Assembly: GCF_001422245.1 (NCBI RefSeq)
Contig: NZ_LMMM01000016.1
Coordinates: 1,242 to 65,241, forward strand
Length of the DNA stretch: 64,000 nucleotides
DNA from: Rhizobium sp. Leaf262
Lineage (GTDB): Bacteria > Pseudomonadota > Alphaproteobacteria > Rhizobiales > Rhizobiaceae
Direction of reading: 5' to 3'
Positions 3,679 through 34,716 of this stretch are shown here, one piece after another. Every line of letters starts with the position of its first letter. The stretch's first letter is position 1. Below the pieces are notes generated by a model. The model saw nothing but the letters and a program-made list of their open reading frames with translations. It did not search any database and had not been told where the DNA came from. The position numbers and the translations under genes are program-made.

Positions 3679-4068
3679 ATGGCGAAGGCTAAGACCGAAC
3701 GCCGGCTGAAGGACAATGAGGCTCAGGCCATTGCCCGTACGCTTCGCGTCAGCCCCCAGAAACTGAACCTGGTTGCCGCTCTTATCCGTGGCAAGAAGGT
3801 TGATCGCGCTCTCGCCGAGCTCGAATTCTCCCGCAAGCGTATCGCTTCCACCGTCAAGAAGACGCTGGAATCGGCTATCGCGAACGCAGAAAACAACCAT
3901 GACCTCGACGTCGACGCTCTCGTCGTCGCCGAGGCCTATGTCGGCAAGTCCATCACCATGAAGCGTTTCCACGCTCGTGGCCGTGGCCGTGCATCGCGTA
4001 TCGAAAAGCCGTTCTCTCACTTGACGATCGTTGTTCGTGAAGTGGAAGAAAAAGGGGAGGCCGCATAA
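3679..4068 (+). CDS. rplV: Ribosomal protein L22 (uL22)
   Basis: This 129-residue L22 has the start [19 protein letters not shown] and the beta-hairpin [18 protein letters not shown] that extends into the exit tunnel (macrolide resistance region in the family). Its TAA stop shares one base with the rpsC start (TAATG at 4066-4070), a tight coupling. Confidence 0.98.
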
Positions 4069-4799
4069 TGGGTCAGAAAATCAATCCAATCGGCTTCCGC
4101 CTCGGCATTAACCGTACGTGGGACAGCCGCTGGTATGCAGACACTGCCGAATACGGCAAGCTTCTGCACGAAGACCTCGCTATCCGCGCCTACCTGATCA
4201 AGGAATTGAAGCAGGCTGGTATCGCCAAGGTTGTCATCGAGCGTCCGCACAAGAAGTGCCGCGTGACCATTCACTCGGCTCGTCCGGGTCTGATCATCGG
4301 CAAGAAGGGTGCAGACATCGAAAAGCTTCGCAAGAAGATTTCCGAGATGACCTCTTCTGAAACGCACCTCAACATCGTTGAAGTGCGCAAGCCTGAAATC
4401 GACGCAACACTCGTTGCTCAGTCGATCGCTCAGCAGCTTGAGCGCCGCGTGGCTTTCCGCCGCGCCATGAAGCGCGCTGTTCAGTCCGCACTGCGTCTTG
4501 GCGCCGAAGGCATCAAGATCACCTGCGGTGGCCGTCTTGGCGGCGCTGAAATCGCTCGTACCGAATGGTACCGCGAAGGCCGCGTTCCTTTGCACACACT
4601 GCGTGCGGACATCGATTACGGTACGGCTGAAGCCGAAACCGCGTTCGGCATCTGCGGCATCAAGGTCTGGATCTTCAAGGGCGAAATCCTTGAGCACGAT
4701 CCGATGGCTTCCGAGCGTCGTGGGCTCGAAGGCGATGCACAGGGTCCGGCAAGCCGTGAGCGCGGCGATCGTGGCGACCGTCGCCGCGAAAACGCTTGA
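4068..4799 (+). CDS. rpsC: Ribosomal protein S3 (uS3)
   Basis: This 243-residue S3 has an N-terminal KH domain with the loop [13 protein letters not shown] near residues 74-86, and the C-terminal ACGGRLGG-type block (here [13 protein letters not shown]). It forms the mRNA entry helicase site with S4 and S5. The C-terminal tail is rich in Arg, Asp and Gly, about ten residues longer than in E. coli, as is common in rhizobia. Confidence 0.98.
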
Positions 4800-4837
4800 T
4801 TGACGCTGGCGAAAGATAAGCTCGGAGAAGTTAGAAA

Positions 4838-5251
4838 ATGTTGCAGCCAAAGCGTACTAAGTACCGTAAGCAGTTTAAGGGTCGCATTAAAGGCGTGGCC
4901 AAGGGCGGCTTTGACCTGGCATTCGGTGAATTCGGCTTGAAGTCGCAGGAACCGAACCGCGTGAACGCGCGCGAGATCGAGGCGGCCCGCCGCGCGATCA
5001 CGCGTTACATGAAGCGCGCTGGTCGTGTGTGGATCCGCGTATTCCCAGACACTCCGGTCACGGCGAAGCCGACCGAAGTTCGTATGGGTAAGGGCAAGGG
5101 TTCTGTTGAATACTGGGCATGCAAGGTCAAGCCCGGTCGTATGATGTTCGAGATCGACGGTGTTTCCGAGGAGATCGCCCGCGAGGCGCTTCGTCTCGGC
5201 GCTGCCAAGCTCTCGGTGAAGACGCGCTTCGTTCAGCGCATCGCAGAGTAA
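4838..5251 (+). CDS. rplP: Ribosomal protein L16 (uL16)
   Basis: This 137-residue protein begins [16 protein letters not shown] and carries the signature [20 protein letters not shown] near residues 76-95. L16 organises the A-site region of the 50S subunit. It is 38 bases after rpsC and 12 bases before rpmC. Confidence 0.98.
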
Positions 5252-5263
5252 GGAGCAGGCACC

Positions 5264-5464
5264 ATGAAAGCCGAAGACGTTCGCGGCCTCAGCGCCGATC
5301 AGCTCAAGGACAAACTCGTCGACCTGAAGAAGGAGCAGTTCAACCTGCGCTTCCAGAAGGCAACCGGCCAGTTGGAAAAGTCCTCGCGCATCGACGAAGT
5401 CCGTAAGGACATCGCCCGCGTGAAAACCATTGCCCGCCAGAAGGCGGCAGAAGCCAAGGCCTAA
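5264..5464 (+). CDS. rpmC: Ribosomal protein L29 (uL29)
   Basis: This is the 66-residue two-helix protein L29 with the conserved [20 protein letters not shown] stretch. It lies at the tunnel exit next to L23. It starts 12 bases after rplP and ends 12 bases before rpsQ, in the standard S10 operon order. Confidence 0.98.
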
Positions 5465-5476
5465 AGGAAGAATAAT

Positions 5477-5713
5477 ATGCCTAAACGCATTCTGCAGGGC
5501 GTCGTTGTGTCCGACAAGAACGAGAAGACTGTCGTAGTTCGCGTCGAGCGCCGATTCGCTCACCCGCTGCTTCAGAAGACCGTTCGCCGTTCGAAGAAGT
5601 ACAAGGCGCACGACGAAAACAACCAGTACAAGATCGGCGATGTCGTTTCCATCGAGGAATGCGCGCCAATCTCCAAGGATAAGCGCTGGACGGTCGTTTC
5701 CGCCCAGGCATAA
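5477..5713 (+). CDS. rpsQ: Ribosomal protein S17 (uS17)
   Basis: This is a 78-residue OB-fold protein beginning [21 protein letters not shown]17 is a primary 16S rRNA binder of the 30S body. It is the last gene of the S10 block, because a terminator-like hairpin (5773-5802) and a 232-base gap follow before rplN. Confidence 0.98.
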
Positions 5714-5772
5714 TTTCAACAGATTTTCGCGCAGGCCTTGCTATATGCGCGAAAGTCTGTATGAAGCAGCAC

Positions 5773-5802
5773 AAGAACGCTCGTTCACGGGCGTTCTTTT
5801 GC
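5773..5802 (+). terminator. Terminator-like hairpin after rpsQ
   Basis: An 11-bp stem (5773-5783 with 5788-5798, one G-T pair) encloses a TTCA loop and ends in TTTT followed by GCTTT. This is the form of a moderate intrinsic terminator and marks the border between the S10 and spc blocks. The rest of the gap up to 5945 has no gene and may hold a promoter for rplN. Confidence 0.7.
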
Positions 5803-5945
5803 TTTGATGCGCACGGAAGGTCCTTTGGGAAACCACCCTGTCACGATTATTCCGCGCGAAAACAGAGACATTTCATAAGCTGGAACAGGGGGCCGTTCGC
5901 TAGGCGTGCCCAACCGGTCCGGTAACAACAAGAAGGCGACCTGAC

Positions 5946-6314
5946 ATGATTCAGATGCAAACAAACCTCGACGTGGCGGATAATTCCGGCGCACGTCGTG
6001 TCATGTGCATCAAGGTGCTGGGCGGCTCGAAGCGCAAGTATGCTTCCGTTGGCGACATTATCGTCGTTTCGATCAAGGAAGCAATTCCGCGCGGCCGCGT
6101 CAAAAAGGGCGACGTGATGAAGGCGGTCGTTGTTCGTACCGCCAAGGACATCCGCCGCGCTGACGGCAGCGTCATCCGTTTCGATAATAACGCAGCCGTT
6201 CTTATCGATAACAAGAAAGAGCCGATCGGCACCCGTATCTTCGGACCGGTTCCACGCGAACTTCGCGCCAAGAACCACATGAAGATCATCTCGCTGGCTC
6301 CAGAAGTACTGTAA
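5946..6314 (+). CDS. rplN: Ribosomal protein L14 (uL14)
   Basis: This 122-residue protein begins [20 protein letters not shown] and contains [17 protein letters not shown], both diagnostic of L14. L14 lies at the subunit interface and takes part in bridge B8. It is the first gene of the spc block and lies 12 bases before rplX. Confidence 0.98.
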
Positions 6315-30498: not shown

Positions 30499-30783
30499 AT
30501 GACTTTCGGTCTTCACCCTCAAACGGGACGACTCCATCTGGGAAAATGGAGCATGCCGATGCCGCGTTCGCGAGTCGGGCGCATCATTATCGGCGTTTTG
30601 CTCGTCGTTGGCGGTATCCTCGGCTTCCTTCCCATACTTGGTTTCTGGATGGTGCCGCTCGGTCTTCTCGTGCTCTCGCAGGATTTGCCCTATGTGCGGC
30701 GCCAGCGGCGACGGCTTGCCGTCTGGTGGGTCAGGAAGCGGCGCGCCCGTGAAGCGCGCCGAGGCGGCACTATGCGCCCGTGA
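30499..30783 (+). CDS. Small conserved membrane protein
   Basis: This 94-residue protein has two close hydrophobic segments (RIIIGVLLVVGGILGFLP and FWMVPLGLLVLSQDLPYV) and a very basic C-terminus (RRQRRRLAVWWVRKRRARE). It resembles a conserved rhizobial inner-membrane protein of unknown function. The start at 30499 avoids the tRNA, which the longer frame from 30208 would run through. Its end overlaps the exoD end by 14 bases on the opposite strand. Confidence 0.75.
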   Translation: MTFGLHPQTGRLHLGKWSMPMPRSRVGRIIIGVLLVVGGILGFLPILGFWMVPLGLLVLSQDLPYVRRQRRRLAVWWVRKRRAREARRGGTMRP

Positions 30784-31417
30784 GCGAGTTGCTGATGCCT
30801 TGTCCTGCCCAGAAAGCTCCATAGCCGAGGGCAGCGAAGTAAATCGTCGTCAGAATCAGGAAAAGGTAACCACCCAGCACCGTCGCGCCATCACGCTGGA
30901 TCATGCCCGCTGAAAATAGCAGGATCGCGATACCCGGCAGCGTGTTGGAAAACGGCACGAAGCCCAGAGGCATCATCAGCAATATCCCTGCCGCCATGAT
31001 CGCAAGTCCATTGACGCGTGCCATGACGTTGCCTGAGGTCAAGCCGGGAAGACGGGGGCGCATGAATCGATCCAGCTTGGACACGATGGTCACGCCTTTT
31101 TGCAGGGCAGGGGCCAGCCGCGCCGTTTCCATCTGCTTGTCGAGAATGCGTTTCGGTAGCCATGGAAGCCGGTTGAGCGTGATCGCGAGGCTGATCATAA
31201 CGATGGCCGCGCCAAACACAGTACTGACGCCGGGAATCGACACAGGAATCAGGAAGGGAAGGCATGCGATGGCGCACATGAGCAGCAGGCCCTGTTCCCC
31301 AATCGCCTCCATCAACTCACGCAGCGTGATGGTTTTTCCACGCAAATTGCCGATGAGCCTTTCGAGCACTGTGCTCAGGCTTTCCGATGTGTCCTTGAAA
31401 CTGATGTTGTCCGTCAT
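30770..31417 (-). CDS. exoD: Exopolysaccharide synthesis protein ExoD
   Basis: This 215-residue inner-membrane protein of the ExoD family shows the typical TLRELMEAIGEQGLLLMCAI segment and the repeated GLAIMAAGILLMMPLGFVPF block, with four to five membrane segments. exoD mutants of Sinorhizobium have altered exopolysaccharide and alkali sensitivity. The exact activity is unknown. It is monocistronic as far as can be seen. Confidence 0.88.
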   Translation of the reverse strand: MTDNISFKDTSESLSTVLERLIGNLRGKTITLRELMEAIGEQGLLLMCAIACLPFLIPVSIPGVSTVFGAAIVMISLAITLNRLPWLPKRILDKQMETARLAPALQKGVTIVSKLDRFMRPRLPGLTSGNVMARVNGLAIMAAGILLMMPLGFVPFSNTLPGIAILLFSAGMIQRDGATVLGGYLFLILTTIYFAALGYGAFWAGQGISNSLTGA

Positions 31418-31769: not shown

Positions 31770-31802
31770 ATTTGAATAAGGCTTATCCCGTTCGCACAGG
31801 TG
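31770..31802 (+). repeat. Left target duplication and left terminal inverted repeat
   Basis: ATTTGAAT (31770-31777) is the left target-site copy. The 25-bp repeat at 31778-31802 is the exact reverse complement of 33996-34020. Confidence 0.93.
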
Positions 31803-31913
31803 CATACCACATGCAGTGCTAGCGTGGAGGCGACTCACTTTCGATCACGAGTAAGAATTTCAGAGATCGGATGAAAAAGCGTCAGGCTTTACCGTAGGTC
31901 CACAAAAGGATCA

Positions 31914-31941
31914 GACAAATTGACCCGCCATCCAATTTGTC
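31914..31941 (+). promoter_or_regulatory. Palindromic operator of the toxin-antitoxin operon
   Basis: GACAAATTG (31914-31922), a 10-base spacer and CAATTTGTC (31933-31941) form a perfect 9-bp inverted repeat 38 bases before the antitoxin start. A related half-site (CATTGTC) follows at about 31945-31951. Ribbon-helix-helix antitoxins bind such palindromes to repress their own operon, so this is the likely autoregulatory site. Confidence 0.7.
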
Positions 31942-31978
31942 TTACATTGTCTTTCATCTCACCAGAGGGAGAAGCCAC

Positions 31979-32239
31979 ATGACCAAGTCGCAAGGATCGG
32001 AATCCGTGACTCTCCGCATCCCCTCGGACGTCGTTGCAAATATTGAGGCCGTCGCTGACGCCACCGACCGTTCACGAAGCTACATCATCGTTCGCGCCTT
32101 GAAGACGTATCTCCTCAACGAAGGAGCGGACATCCTGGCTGCAGCTCGTGGACGAGATCAGATAGCGGCTGGCGAGTATGAGGACATCGACGACATTATC
32201 GCTGATGTGGACAAAATCGTTGCCGGACATGCCGCATGA
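31979..32239 (+). CDS. Ribbon-helix-helix (CopG/ParD-like) antitoxin
   Basis: This 86-residue protein has the RHH pattern at its N-terminus: ESVTLRIPSDVVANIEAVAD, then ATDRSRSYIIVRALKTYL. The C-terminus is acidic (EYEDIDDIIADVDKI), as needed to wrap a toxin. AGAGGGAGAAG precedes the ATG at 31979. Its stop overlaps the toxin ATG by four bases. It should neutralise the toxin and repress the operon at 31914-31941. Confidence 0.85.
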   Translation: MTKSQGSESVTLRIPSDVVANIEAVADATDRSRSYIIVRALKTYLLNEGADILAAARGRDQIAAGEYEDIDDIIADVDKIVAGHAA

Positions 32240-32598
32240 CGCGAGTGAGAGTTTCGAAGGAAGCCGCCAACTTCATTAGGAGCGAAGCGGCTTACCTTCG
32301 TCGTCGGAACCCGCATGCCGCTCAGAGTTTCTCGGATACCATCCGACGCGCGAAGGACGTTTTGAGGACCTTTGCAGATGCGGGGAACGTGACCCATGGA
32401 CTCCAGATCGATGGCGGACTGACACTTGTCGTCGATGCATACCTATTCGACTACATGCGAGACGATGATGATGTGAACATCATCGCAGTACGCCATGGTC
32501 GAATGCTTCAGCTAACGCCAAACGTCGAGGAAGAGCTCGACGACGGCTTGGACATGGAGGAGCCTTATGACGACTCTTCCAGCACCTTCAGGTCGTGA
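32236..32598 (+). CDS. RelE/ParE-family toxin
   Basis: This 120-residue protein has the RelE/ParE fold pattern: an N-terminal strand (MTRVRVSKEAANFI), two helices (AAYLRRRNPHAAQSFSDTIR) and C-terminal strands ending VNIIAVRHGRM. It starts inside the antitoxin stop (ATGA). Gyrase poisoning (ParE) or ribosome-bound mRNA cutting (RelE) cannot be told apart from sequence. The acidic tail after VRHGRM is longer than usual and overlaps the transposase end by 11 bases. Confidence 0.82.
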   Translation: MTRVRVSKEAANFIRSEAAYLRRRNPHAAQSFSDTIRRAKDVLRTFADAGNVTHGLQIDGGLTLVVDAYLFDYMRDDDDVNIIAVRHGRMLQLTPNVEEELDDGLDMEEPYDDSSSTFRS

Positions 32599-33937
32599 AC
32601 CCCGCAGGTTCTGCTTTGACCTGTCTTCCGCGTCTCGCGCACGTGATGGGCGAACCAATCGGAACATGTCGCAGGAAGCCTTTTGTGCATTCTGCCTGAA
32701 CAGGGCTTGGCGGATGAATGTATCGGCGCGTGTTGCGCTCCTCGCCAGGCCGCCTTGGTGGTAGCGCCGGGCGCAACGGCTTTCGGCGGAAATACTTATG
32801 CCGTTCTTCCTCGCTTCGAATGTCGTCGAGGGCGTCGAAGATGTCCATGCCGTTTTCGAAGGCGTATTTTTTGGCACGTTTGAGCCGCTCGGGATCAACC
32901 ATCCCCAGCACCTGGTCTCGGTGCTGATGTTTCCATTTGAGGGTGTCGCCGACGATGCCGCGCCAGGTTACGGGGCCGATCTTCTGGCCAAGGCCGAGAA
33001 GAGTGTCGATGGATGTCTGGAAGCTGCGACGACGGTTCCATCGGAAGACGAACTCATTGCAGTAGATGTCGACGTGCTTCTCTCTAAGGCCGTGGTATGT
33101 CCCCATCGCCCAGCGCTTGAAGTTGGAAAAGATGCGATGAACCCACTTCAGCAAGATATGCGCTGGTAACGCATTCGTGGCACTGAGATTATGTGCTTTG
33201 TGTTTGCGCTCCGGCGGCCGTTCGTAGGCGCTATAACCGTCGGTGATGATCTGTGTGCCTGGCGCGGTGTTCTGGGCGATGAACCGTTGTAGCGTCTCGC
33301 GATCCGCGACTTGAACACGTTCCAACCGCATGCGCCCGGCATAGAACTTGTCGACGATCTCGACCGCTCCGACAAGCACCATCTTCCCTATGGGGCTGCG
33401 GCCTTGTCCTCCTGTGAGGGGGTCCGTTTTCTTCCGATACGGCACGTTTGTCTCGTCCATTTCCACGACGCCACTTAAACGACGACGATCCGGATCGACC
33501 ATGGCGCGACGGAGCTTATGGAGAAGAAGCCACGCGGACTTGTAGCTGGCGATACCAAGCTTGGCCTGGAGTTGAAGGGCTGACATCCCGTTCGAGTGTG
33601 TCGCAACGAGGTATGCGGCCAGAAACCATTTGCGCAACGGCAGATGCGTTCCGTGCATGACCGTCCCCGAAATCAGCGAGGTTTGATGGTGGCAGCCAGT
33701 CCTCGTCCGTTCGCCGTTGTCGTCAACCCGAACACCTTGGCACTCCCAGACCCAAGGCCGTGCCTCAAGCCGCCAAGCACGGTTGCCTCCGCACTTCGGG
33801 CATTTGAAGCCATGACGCCATCGTTTCTTGGCCAGGTAGTCCGCACACGCGTAGTCGTCGGAGAAGTCCGAGGTGAACTTCTCCAGCGATGGAGGCCGAT
33901 CCTCGGCCCAACGAGTTGGAAACAGGCTTTCGCTCAT
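32588..33937 (-). CDS. IS1595-type transposase
   Basis: This 449-residue transposase has an N-terminal zinc ribbon (CPKCGGNRAW, later TGCHHQTS) and the ISXO2-like DDE domain with catalytic-type aspartates in VVEMDETNVPYR and IITDGYSAYER. Further on are WVHRIFSNFKRWAMGTYHG and the Asn-containing CNEFVFRWNRR. The start is uncertain: an ATG at 33937 has a GGGGAGG directly adjacent, and a GTG at 33967 would add ten residues. No frameshift is seen, so the element may be active. Confidence 0.9.
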   Translation of the reverse strand: MSESLFPTRWAEDRPPSLEKFTSDFSDDYACADYLAKKRWRHGFKCPKCGGNRAWRLEARPWVWECQGVRVDDNGERTRTGCHHQTSLISGTVMHGTHLPLRKWFLAAYLVATHSNGMSALQLQAKLGIASYKSAWLLLHKLRRAMVDPDRRRLSGVVEMDETNVPYRKKTDPLTGGQGRSPIGKMVLVGAVEIVDKFYAGRMRLERVQVADRETLQRFIAQNTAPGTQIITDGYSAYERPPERKHKAHNLSATNALPAHILLKWVHRIFSNFKRWAMGTYHGLREKHVDIYCNEFVFRWNRRRSFQTSIDTLLGLGQKIGPVTWRGIVGDTLKWKHQHRDQVLGMVDPERLKRAKKYAFENGMDIFDALDDIRSEEERHKYFRRKPLRPALPPRRPGEERNTRRYIHPPSPVQAECTKGFLRHVPIGSPITCARRGRQVKAEPAGFTT

Positions 33938-33995
33938 CCTCCCCGTATAGCCGAGCAGGGGAGACACGTCATTCGTGAGCGCTAGATGTGGTTAA

Positions 33996-34028
33996 CACCT
34001 GTGCGAACGGGATAAGCCTTATTTGAAT
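33996..34028 (-). repeat. Right terminal inverted repeat and right target duplication
   Basis: The 25 bases 33996-34020 are the exact reverse complement of the left end. ATTTGAAT follows at 34021-34028 as the second target-site copy. Confidence 0.93.
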
Positions 34029-34128: not shown

Positions 34129-34716
34129 ATGCTCAAGAGATTATATGCGTGGACAATGGCGCTCGCCGCCAGAAAAACTGCGGTCTGGTGGCTCGGCATC
34201 GTGGCCTTTGTAGAAAGCTCGGTTTTTCTCGTGCCTGCCGACGTTCTGTTTATTCCCATGGTGCTCGCCCGACCGCGTCGCGCCATGTTCTATGCATCGG
34301 TCGCCACGGTTGCCTCAGTGCTTGGCGGCATCGCCGGCTGGTATCTGGGACATTACGCCTTCGAGAGCATAGCCCGCCCGGTCCTGGAATTTTATGGCAA
34401 GCTGGAAAGCTTCGAGCATCTGAAGGCATCGGTCGACTATGAGACCATTTTGCTGCTTCTCGTCACATCCGGTCTTGCGCATCTTCCGCCGATCAAGGTG
34501 GTGACGATTCTGTCCGGTGCCGCCAATATCAGTCTCAGCCTGTTCATTCTCGCTGCAGTCGTCACCCGCGCCGCGCGTTTTTTCATTCTTGCTGGCCTGC
34601 TTCAGCGATACGGCGAACCGATCCGGGACTTCATCGAAAAACGCCTCGGCGTTATAACAGCGGTCGCGGCAGGGGCGCTGATCGCGGTCTATGCGACGTA
34701 TGTCCTGGTGCGGTGA
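34129..34716 (+). CDS. YqaA/DedA-type VTT-domain membrane protein
   Basis: This 195-residue membrane protein has about five hydrophobic segments and a VTT-like (SNARE-associated Golgi) domain. Visible blocks are FVESSVFLVPADVLFIPMVL, GGIAGWYLGHYAF and LRQRYGEPIRDFI-like (LLQRYGEPIRDFIEKRLG). DedA relatives act in lipid flipping, but for this subgroup the role is unknown. The start lies about 100 bases from the right end of the insertion sequence, so its promoter may have been altered by the insertion. Confidence 0.82.
   Translation: MLKRLYAWTMALAARKTAVWWLGIVAFVESSVFLVPADVLFIPMVLARPRRAMFYASVATVASVLGGIAGWYLGHYAFESIARPVLEFYGKLESFEHLKASVDYETILLLLVTSGLAHLPPIKVVTILSGAANISLSLFILAAVVTRAARFFILAGLLQRYGEPIRDFIEKRLGVITAVAAGALIAVYATYVLVR

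Follow-up and report, generated by a model that had tools for sequence, protein, structure and literature searches.

In the accessible part of the ISsaga paper (PMC3129680), insertion sequences (ISs) that hold passenger genes, termed transporter ISs (tISs), are said to have been identified, and a 2009 paper on the IS1595 family is cited for them. In the Tn3 family, according to the accessible text of Lima-Mendez 2020 (PMC7157771), 39 of 190 transposons contain toxin-antitoxin (TA) genes, which have been acquired several times, are exchanged by recombination and are suggested to be stabilising; whether these genes bring their own promoters is described as important to determine. The accessible text of a 2021 review of TA systems mentions Tn3, and the term 'insertion sequence' is absent from it. 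That of a 2023 article dealing with the IS1202 family mentions three tISs with unassigned open reading frames (ORFs), together with TA genes in dif modules near such ISs. Here we analyse an IS1595-family element that carries a complete TA operon at positions 31770-34028 of a 64,000-nucleotide stretch of DNA from Rhizobium sp. Leaf262 (contig NZ_LMMM01000016.1; hereafter the window). An original prediction for this DNA had described such an element and had stated that passenger genes are known in the IS1595 family, as the ISsaga paper bears out.

The data presented below favour, with a probability of about 0.6, the view that this is a transporter-type IS1595 element whose cargo slot is filled by a ribbon-helix-helix (RHH)-ParE operon of the ParDE type, which was captured from a Rhizobiaceae pool, is exchanged between elements as a block and stabilises the element that carries it. 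The anatomy, the empty insertion site, the source lineage, the common promoter and direct repeat, the exchange of modules and the purifying selection are the components of this view that sequence comparison indicates directly. The locus resembles the IS1595 tISs in its transposase domains, inverted-repeat ends, 8-bp target duplication and cargo inside the ends, but differs in that the cargo is a complete RHH-ParE operon with its promoter region, where relatives carry RHH-PIN or AbiE pairs. As in the Tn3 TA transposons, to judge from the accessible text on these, type II pairs (ParE, PIN_3 and others) have repeatedly been acquired beside transposition genes and exchanged by recombination. In contrast to these transposons, the element is only 2.2 kb, its transposase belongs to another superfamily, it has no resolvase, its TA genes lie between the 3' end of the transposase gene and a terminal repeat, converging on the former, and one relative carries AbiE. 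A like arrangement is seen in an IS1595 copy on plasmid 3 of the arsenite-oxidising strain NT-25 (LR723679.1), which has the transposase and a converging RelE/ParE toxin with an RHH antitoxin within its ends, and an exact 8-bp duplication. Its transposase, however, is only ~52-57% identical to that of the window over the aligned parts and its ParE 28% over 89 residues. In that record the transposase is labelled ISRhtr1; the genes are labelled but the unit is not. Among the open-access matches listed, no title or abstract opening reported TA cargo in IS1595 elements or tISs. TA pairs in an exchangeable IS slot therefore look like a new form of a known arrangement, with the proviso that the 2009 paper or ISfinder may already record such elements.

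The IS1595 element and its empty site

Read directly from the sequence, positions 31778-34020 form one complete element of 2243 bp. The terminal inverted repeat at 31778-31802 (forward strand), which lies on the passenger side and is the right end in transposase orientation, is complementary at 25 of 25 positions to the perfect 25-bp repeat at 33996-34020 (reverse strand), on the transposase side or left end. Identical copies of the target duplication, ATTTGAAT, enclose the element at 31770-31777 and 34021-34028. A 23-bp part of the element end, allowing up to three mismatches, occurs at these two places only in the 5.05-Mb, 21-contig genome, and a reversed-pattern control gave none; chance repeats are therefore rejected as the origin of the ends. 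The transposase gene (32588-33937, reverse strand) encodes 449 residues from an ATG and is free of internal stops. The protein contains the domains DDE_Tnp_IS1595 (PF12762, 3.3e-28) and Zn_ribbon_IS1595 (PF12760, 9.2e-9), and matches the NCBIfam IS1595 model (NF033547) at 4.2e-52 with 177 bits, against a cut-off of 75. A GTG at 33967 extends the frame to 459 residues, but the ATG at 33937 is probably the start because the frames of two related elements, L010 and L011, open at its equivalent. The transposase and toxin ORFs are convergent and share their last 11 nucleotides (32588-32598), leaving no space for a terminator between them.

The combination of an ISXO2/IS1595-type DDE transposase with a zinc ribbon, inverted repeats and an 8-bp duplication is that of the IS1595 family, whose subgroups include ISNwi1, ISSod11 and others. 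The element is also of the tIS type, as a TA pair lies within its ends and the related backbones L005, L006 and L007 have no gene-sized cargo. A Tn3-family transposon would need a transposase of ~1000 residues and a resolvase, whereas the longest ORF within the ends is the 459-residue form of the IS1595 transposase. These features agree with the intact element, perfect ends and exact duplication of the original prediction.

The empty site was sought by joining the two flanks at the duplication into an 840-nucleotide query and searching 39 genomes, comprising that of the window and 38 relatives. The query aligned in one piece over nearly its full length in four congeners (G016, G023, G017 and G009), and from 210 to 840 in a fifth genome of the genus (G020). 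Direct alignment revealed no insertion at the junction in these congeners; the nearby bases are poorly conserved, and the exact ATTTGAAT was not found there. Because five congeners have the locus without element or TA genes, the two arrived together. The sequences indicate that the insertion post-dates the splits from the empty-site species, and the 70-76% DNA identity between those genomes and that of the window prevents finer dating. The predicted recent insertion is thus bounded by these splits only.

The same data bear on a chance nested insertion, in which the IS landed beside or around a resident TA pair, an outcome that would have undermined the original prediction. Although TA genes of the same lineage occur free of ISs in Rhizobiaceae genomes, the target duplication encloses both the TA pair and the transposase gene, the congeners have no TA at the locus, and in L010 this pair is enclosed by ends and a duplication of that element. 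The other outcome named against the prediction, the pair at this locus free of transposase and ends, was not seen either. Nested insertion is refuted by these observations and retains a negligible probability, and the occurrence of the same two genes within the ends of L010 supports the earlier claim that they are passengers of the element. The nearest gene-like outer ORFs of at least 150 residues end and start at 31417 and 34129, respectively, and none is interrupted. By eye these flanking ORFs (30770-31417 and 34129-34716) resemble membrane proteins, and their facing ends align in element-free congeners.

Cargo of related elements and its exchange

Relatives of the transposase were collected from genome contigs (18 loci) and then from plasmids and whole genomes. 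Ends and duplication were examined at 37 loci, with three more distant ones (L019-L021, 29-36% identity) lying outside this set, and 22 distinct elements were kept, the window's included. Eight loci were dropped as having no acceptable pair of ends (L018, L067-L072 and L080), and seven (L061-L065, L076 and L077) as repeats of L060, L012, L017 and L008, with equal length and the same or nearly the same transposase identity. The duplication is exact with the ends as called in 18 of the 22 elements; that of L008 becomes exact if the right end is shifted by one base, those of L075 and L016 are not exact, and L004 is cut by a contig end. At E<=1e-60 the elements are uncommon, occurring in 11/394 genomes of the family, 6/397 of the order and 1/385 of the class, counts that include the window's genome and rest on up to four candidates scored per genome. 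The search of the 385 genomes of the class gave none beyond the window's own genome, and scanning viral contigs with the transposase gave no relative.

Cargo is present in 16 of the 22 elements and, in 15 of these, occupies the stretch from the transposase gene to the far end; the helix-turn-helix gene of L073 precedes the transposase gene, outside this slot. The remaining six elements (L005, L006, L007, L017, L060 and L074; 1.58-1.73 kb) have no gene-sized cargo, their short ORFs falling outside the domain searches. A recognised TA pair accounts for the cargo of 5 of the 16, and the pairs are of three unrelated kinds. RHH and ParE genes are found in three elements, those of the window, L010 (recognised by identity to the window's pair) and L078. 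L012 encodes an RHH-like protein (RHH_5 at 7e-4, below the cut-off) and a PIN_3 protein (1.7e-15). L066 (G456:C12), which is 3454 bp with an exact 8-bp duplication, holds an AbiEi-AbiEii pair inside its ends (Pfam AbiEii at 1.4e-40, AbiEi_4 just below the cut-off; PADLOC matches at 4.9e-69 and 1e-71). AbiEi-AbiEii is a type IV TA and anti-phage system. As the window and L010 have one TA in common, the five pairs stand for at most four acquisitions. All five converge on the transposase gene, and the doubtful cargo of L013 and L016 runs with it. The NT-25 plasmid element (L078, positions 3900-6023 of LR723679.1), with its 28%-identical ParE, is apparently a separate capture of RHH-ParE genes in the same slot.

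The tally rises to as many as 9 of 16 if an antitoxin-only element, L004, and three doubtful candidates (L013, L016 and L079) are counted. In L004 (element positions 1413-2233) an 86%-identical antitoxin is retained, no toxin was found, and a 140-residue coiled-coil gene stands in its place. Such an element could protect cells against loss of a TA-bearing copy. L016, from a metagenome-assembled genome, and L079, from an Indioceanicola plasmid, have homologous two-gene cargo (second genes matched by hhalign at 99.3%). Although 66 relatives of the toxin-like protein of L079 were found, the toxin-like proteins of both elements gave no Pfam or NCBIfam match, the L079 protein and a profile of its relatives gave nothing useful against PDB sequences, and a homologue yielded a poor model (mean predicted local distance difference test score, pLDDT, 61.3) with no fold match at E<=0.001. 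The resemblance of this cargo to PemK, judged by eye, is doubtful, mutual homology alone being demonstrated. The cargo of L013 is split into a P-loop piece, whose matches stay below the cut-offs, and a separate downstream piece that has no match; it is only tentatively assigned as TA.

The other seven cargo-bearing elements carry a GNAT gene (L008), nitrilase and hydrolase genes (L015), the helix-turn-helix gene of L073, a DUF805 gene (L075), an ORF with a membrane-like start and no family named (L014), a small unassigned gene searched for in NCBIfam alone (L011), and ORFs classed without a domain search (L009). Both L015 and the AbiE-bearing L066 reside in genome G456. Among ten distant IS1595 copies (L130-L139), seven (L132-L138) are 1.0-1.15 kb with an exact duplication and no cargo; L130 and L131 have ends but no exact duplication, and the ends of L139 are not resolved. 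In L139 (NC_015178.1, Acidiphilium; 4502-5017) the distant transposase is met, with a 4-nucleotide overlap, by a gene annotated as an MbcA/ParS/Xre antitoxin. The relatives, with other kinds of TA, other genes or none, make plain that the original prediction overlooked the exchangeability of the cargo.

How this exchange may proceed is illustrated by alignments of whole elements. The window's element and the cargo-free L005 are 87.1% identical over 1300 nucleotides, with 81-97% in each 100 nucleotides as far as element position 1300; beyond this point the similarity drops to background, to reappear at the right end. The left 1300 nucleotides of L010 are 94.0% identical to L011, which carries different cargo (the small unassigned gene), and only 69.0% to the window, whereas the TA genes and right end of L010 match those of the window. 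In L010 the left end is of the ATGGC form, as in the clade of L010 itself, and the right end of the AAGGC form, as in the clade of the window, although L011, too, has AAGGC at its right end. From the right end to the antitoxin gene, the non-coding sequences of the window and L010 are 67.0% identical, against a maximum of 58.5% in 20 shuffles, while seven elements that have different cargo or none share only 33-43% identity with the window at the right end. L010 and L011 are 50.0% identical at the right end over 132 columns, in a looser alignment. Since the left half of L010 matches L011 while its TA genes and right end match the window, L010 is a hybrid element, and we conclude that the window's TA genes have been exchanged between IS backbones as a block with the right end.

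Four-fold degenerate sites point in the same direction. Between the window and L010, 60/149 are identical in the transposase gene and 61/95 in the TA genes (Fisher P 4e-4), numbers that are the same with or without a few transposase codons that lie past the frame change of L010. Between the window and L004, for which no exchange is needed, the corresponding values are 114/186 in the transposase and 24/41 in the antitoxin (P 0.86), an equality that agrees with a common ancestor already carrying the TA. The view that the TA was ancestral to the whole clade and merely lost elsewhere is disfavoured by the difference between the window and L010, and by the L010/L011 chimera.

The toxin-antitoxin operon and its source

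The operon, on the forward strand, comprises an 86-residue RHH antitoxin of the CopG/RHH_1 type (31979-32239; RHH_1 1.7e-6) and a 120-residue toxin of the ParE superfamily (32236-32598; ParE_toxin, PF05016, 1.5e-7), both matches being above the Pfam cut-offs. The start of the toxin gene overlaps the antitoxin stop codon through ATGA. A ParE-family toxin with an adjoining upstream DNA-binding antitoxin in one operon is the organization of a type II ParDE system, and the complete RHH-toxin operon of the original prediction stands, refined in that the toxin fold is predicted to be ParE rather than RelE. A model of the toxin (mean pLDDT 76.5, and weak beyond about residue 90) gave 13 matches in the PDB at E<=0.001 in a Foldseek search, consisting of 12 chains of ParE-type complexes and PrpT, whereas the first RelE chain ranked only 17th, with RelE, YoeB and YafQ chains ranking lower; RelE was rejected on these grounds. 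Among the solved ParDE systems that have the predicted fold in common with the toxin are those of Mesorhizobium opportunistum (5ceg and 6x0a) and PaaA2-ParE2 (5cw7), of which 5ceg, entitled only toxin/antitoxin, is presumably a ParE complex. By contrast, the 13 top-ranked fold matches have only 14-22% sequence identity. The single toxin sequence gave no match to PDB chains at E<=0.1, and a toxin profile retrieved 6x0a alone, at 0.011.

Upstream of the antitoxin gene lies a promoter-like site, TTGACC - 17 nucleotides - TACATT (31920-31948, forward strand), which is weak evidence when taken alone, as one was seen in the region against 0.9 expected by shuffling. A direct repeat, TTGTCTTACA-TTGTCTTTC (31937-31955, forward strand), is operator-like and overlaps the -10 element. 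In an alignment of 13 upstream regions, 3 IS-borne and 10 others, a pair of GTCTTAC-like copies, neither with more than one change, stands just 5' of the gene in 10 regions (3/3 IS-borne and 7/10 others). TTGAC occupies the -35 position in 7 of the 13, all among the 10 with the repeat, and the regions of L003, L086 and L088 have an altered version of the repeat. We infer that the direct repeat may serve as the operator.

The wider distribution of the TA genes points to their source. A word-limited protein search found 24 toxin relatives at E<=1e-3, and relatives at E<=1e-12 occur in 28 of 394 genomes of the family, at 32 places including the window. Thirty loci were checked, comprising 29 of the 31 places outside the window (two were without a locus) and one plasmid hit; a matching antitoxin was present at 29 and a matching toxin at 29. 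None of the 30 has a transposase relative, and none has paired ends within ~1.5 kb on each side (the plasmid locus was longer), although two have a single end-like near-match with 5 of 20 positions mismatched. On these data the TA is of a chromosomal Rhizobiaceae lineage, and the direct repeat common to IS-borne and other copies shows that the module, when captured, brought its promoter region along. The antitoxin tree is too weak to tell whether the IS-borne copies form one clade. Elsewhere in the window's genome (G000:C4:73034-73336) there is a toxin relative, 41% identical, with its own antitoxin.

Possible roles of the passenger operon

In the favoured, stabilising view the transposase and the two ends are the mobile machinery, and the region from the 3' end of the transposase gene to the far end is a cargo slot. 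Into this slot the operon was taken from the Rhizobiaceae chromosomal pool with its promoter and direct repeat, and it later moved between IS1595 backbones by recombination, in one block with the right end. If expressed, the operon would be autoregulated, the antitoxin binding the direct repeat over the -10 element and repressing transcription, while the ATGA coupling would hold the toxin below the antitoxin. On loss of the element or its carrier the antitoxin would be the first to decay, leaving the ParE toxin, a probable gyrase inhibitor, to stop growth, such that lineages retaining the element would prevail. Such post-segregational stabilisation of the element, which the original prediction proposed by way of a possible cost of loss to the host, is plausible.

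Several observations weigh against this interpretation. The six cargo-free elements and the seven with non-TA genes mean that the TA is not needed for element persistence. In the genomes that contain the elements of the window, L010, L012 and L066, the respective transposase occurs only once, so that success by copy number is not seen. The element with the most copies, five of its transposase in G588 (L060-L063 and L158), is cargo-free in the four copies examined, each of 1584 bp. The exception is the doubtful TA element L079, whose transposase is carried by two plasmids of the same strain. The toxin model is only moderate, and the 41%-identical relative in the same genome might cross-neutralise the toxin. 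With regard to exchange, the four-fold sites of L010 and L004 (70/152 versus 26/45, P 0.18) lean in the same direction as those of the window and L010 but not significantly. Finally, the TA genes have a ratio of non-synonymous to synonymous substitution (dN/dS) of ~0.1, taken as purifying selection on the reading frames, yet a share of the underlying divergence may date from chromosomal life.

It is possible, though we consider it appreciably less probable than stabilisation, that the cargo is neutral or incidental. The slot would then take any short block, TA operons owing their frequency there only to a small size, self-sufficiency and abundance in mobile DNA, and the operon would be an ordinary TA of no benefit to the element. 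This fits the unrelated or unassigned genes in 7 of the 16 cargo-bearing elements and the close backbones without cargo, such as L005. It also fits the transposase tree, in which long branches were flagged as unsure. There the TA label (nine rows, doubtful ones included) changes eight times, with six changes forced by well-supported branches; this is about as in shuffled labels and no more clustered, gains and losses not being distinguished. In contrast, the window's genome has only 7 ParE and 6 PIN places in 5.05 Mb, a yardstick rather than a formal test, yet 5 of 16 blocks are recognised pairs of three unrelated kinds; this count comes from a small panel and stands for at most four separate acquisitions. 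The purifying selection on the TA frames likewise speaks against neutral cargo.

Rather improbable, in our view, is a TA that serves mainly the host or the carrying replicon, through stress response, maintenance of a plasmid or region, or anti-phage arrest, with the IS as its vehicle. Relatives of the same TA are found with no IS nearby, five related element copies are plasmid-borne (L075-L079) and one relative carries AbiE, which is listed by PADLOC. The window's copy, however, is on a 421-kb contig, between the two ORFs whose facing ends align in element-free congeners, and PADLOC gave no match to its pair at E<=0.001.

A more far-reaching extension of the stabilising view is speculative. 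One Hyphomicrobiales IS1595 clade might be a modular vehicle for addiction modules, with a fixed transposase half and an interchangeable right-end half, onto which unrelated TA systems are loaded independently and passed between backbones. If so, the kinds loaded would be ParDE, RHH-PIN and AbiE, perhaps with a PemK-like pair and a P-loop kinase-like pair. Because the window's operon runs towards the transposase gene and overlaps it, TA transcription could also run antisense into that gene, tying a shortage of antitoxin to lower transposition.

The findings extend to a 2.2-kb insertion sequence the idea of a TA inside a transposon, described for Tn3, and they offer a small natural system in which to ask whether a TA in a transposable element stabilises that element. 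As cargo-free, TA-bearing, antitoxin-only and other-cargo versions exist on related backbones, their stability would be directly comparable.

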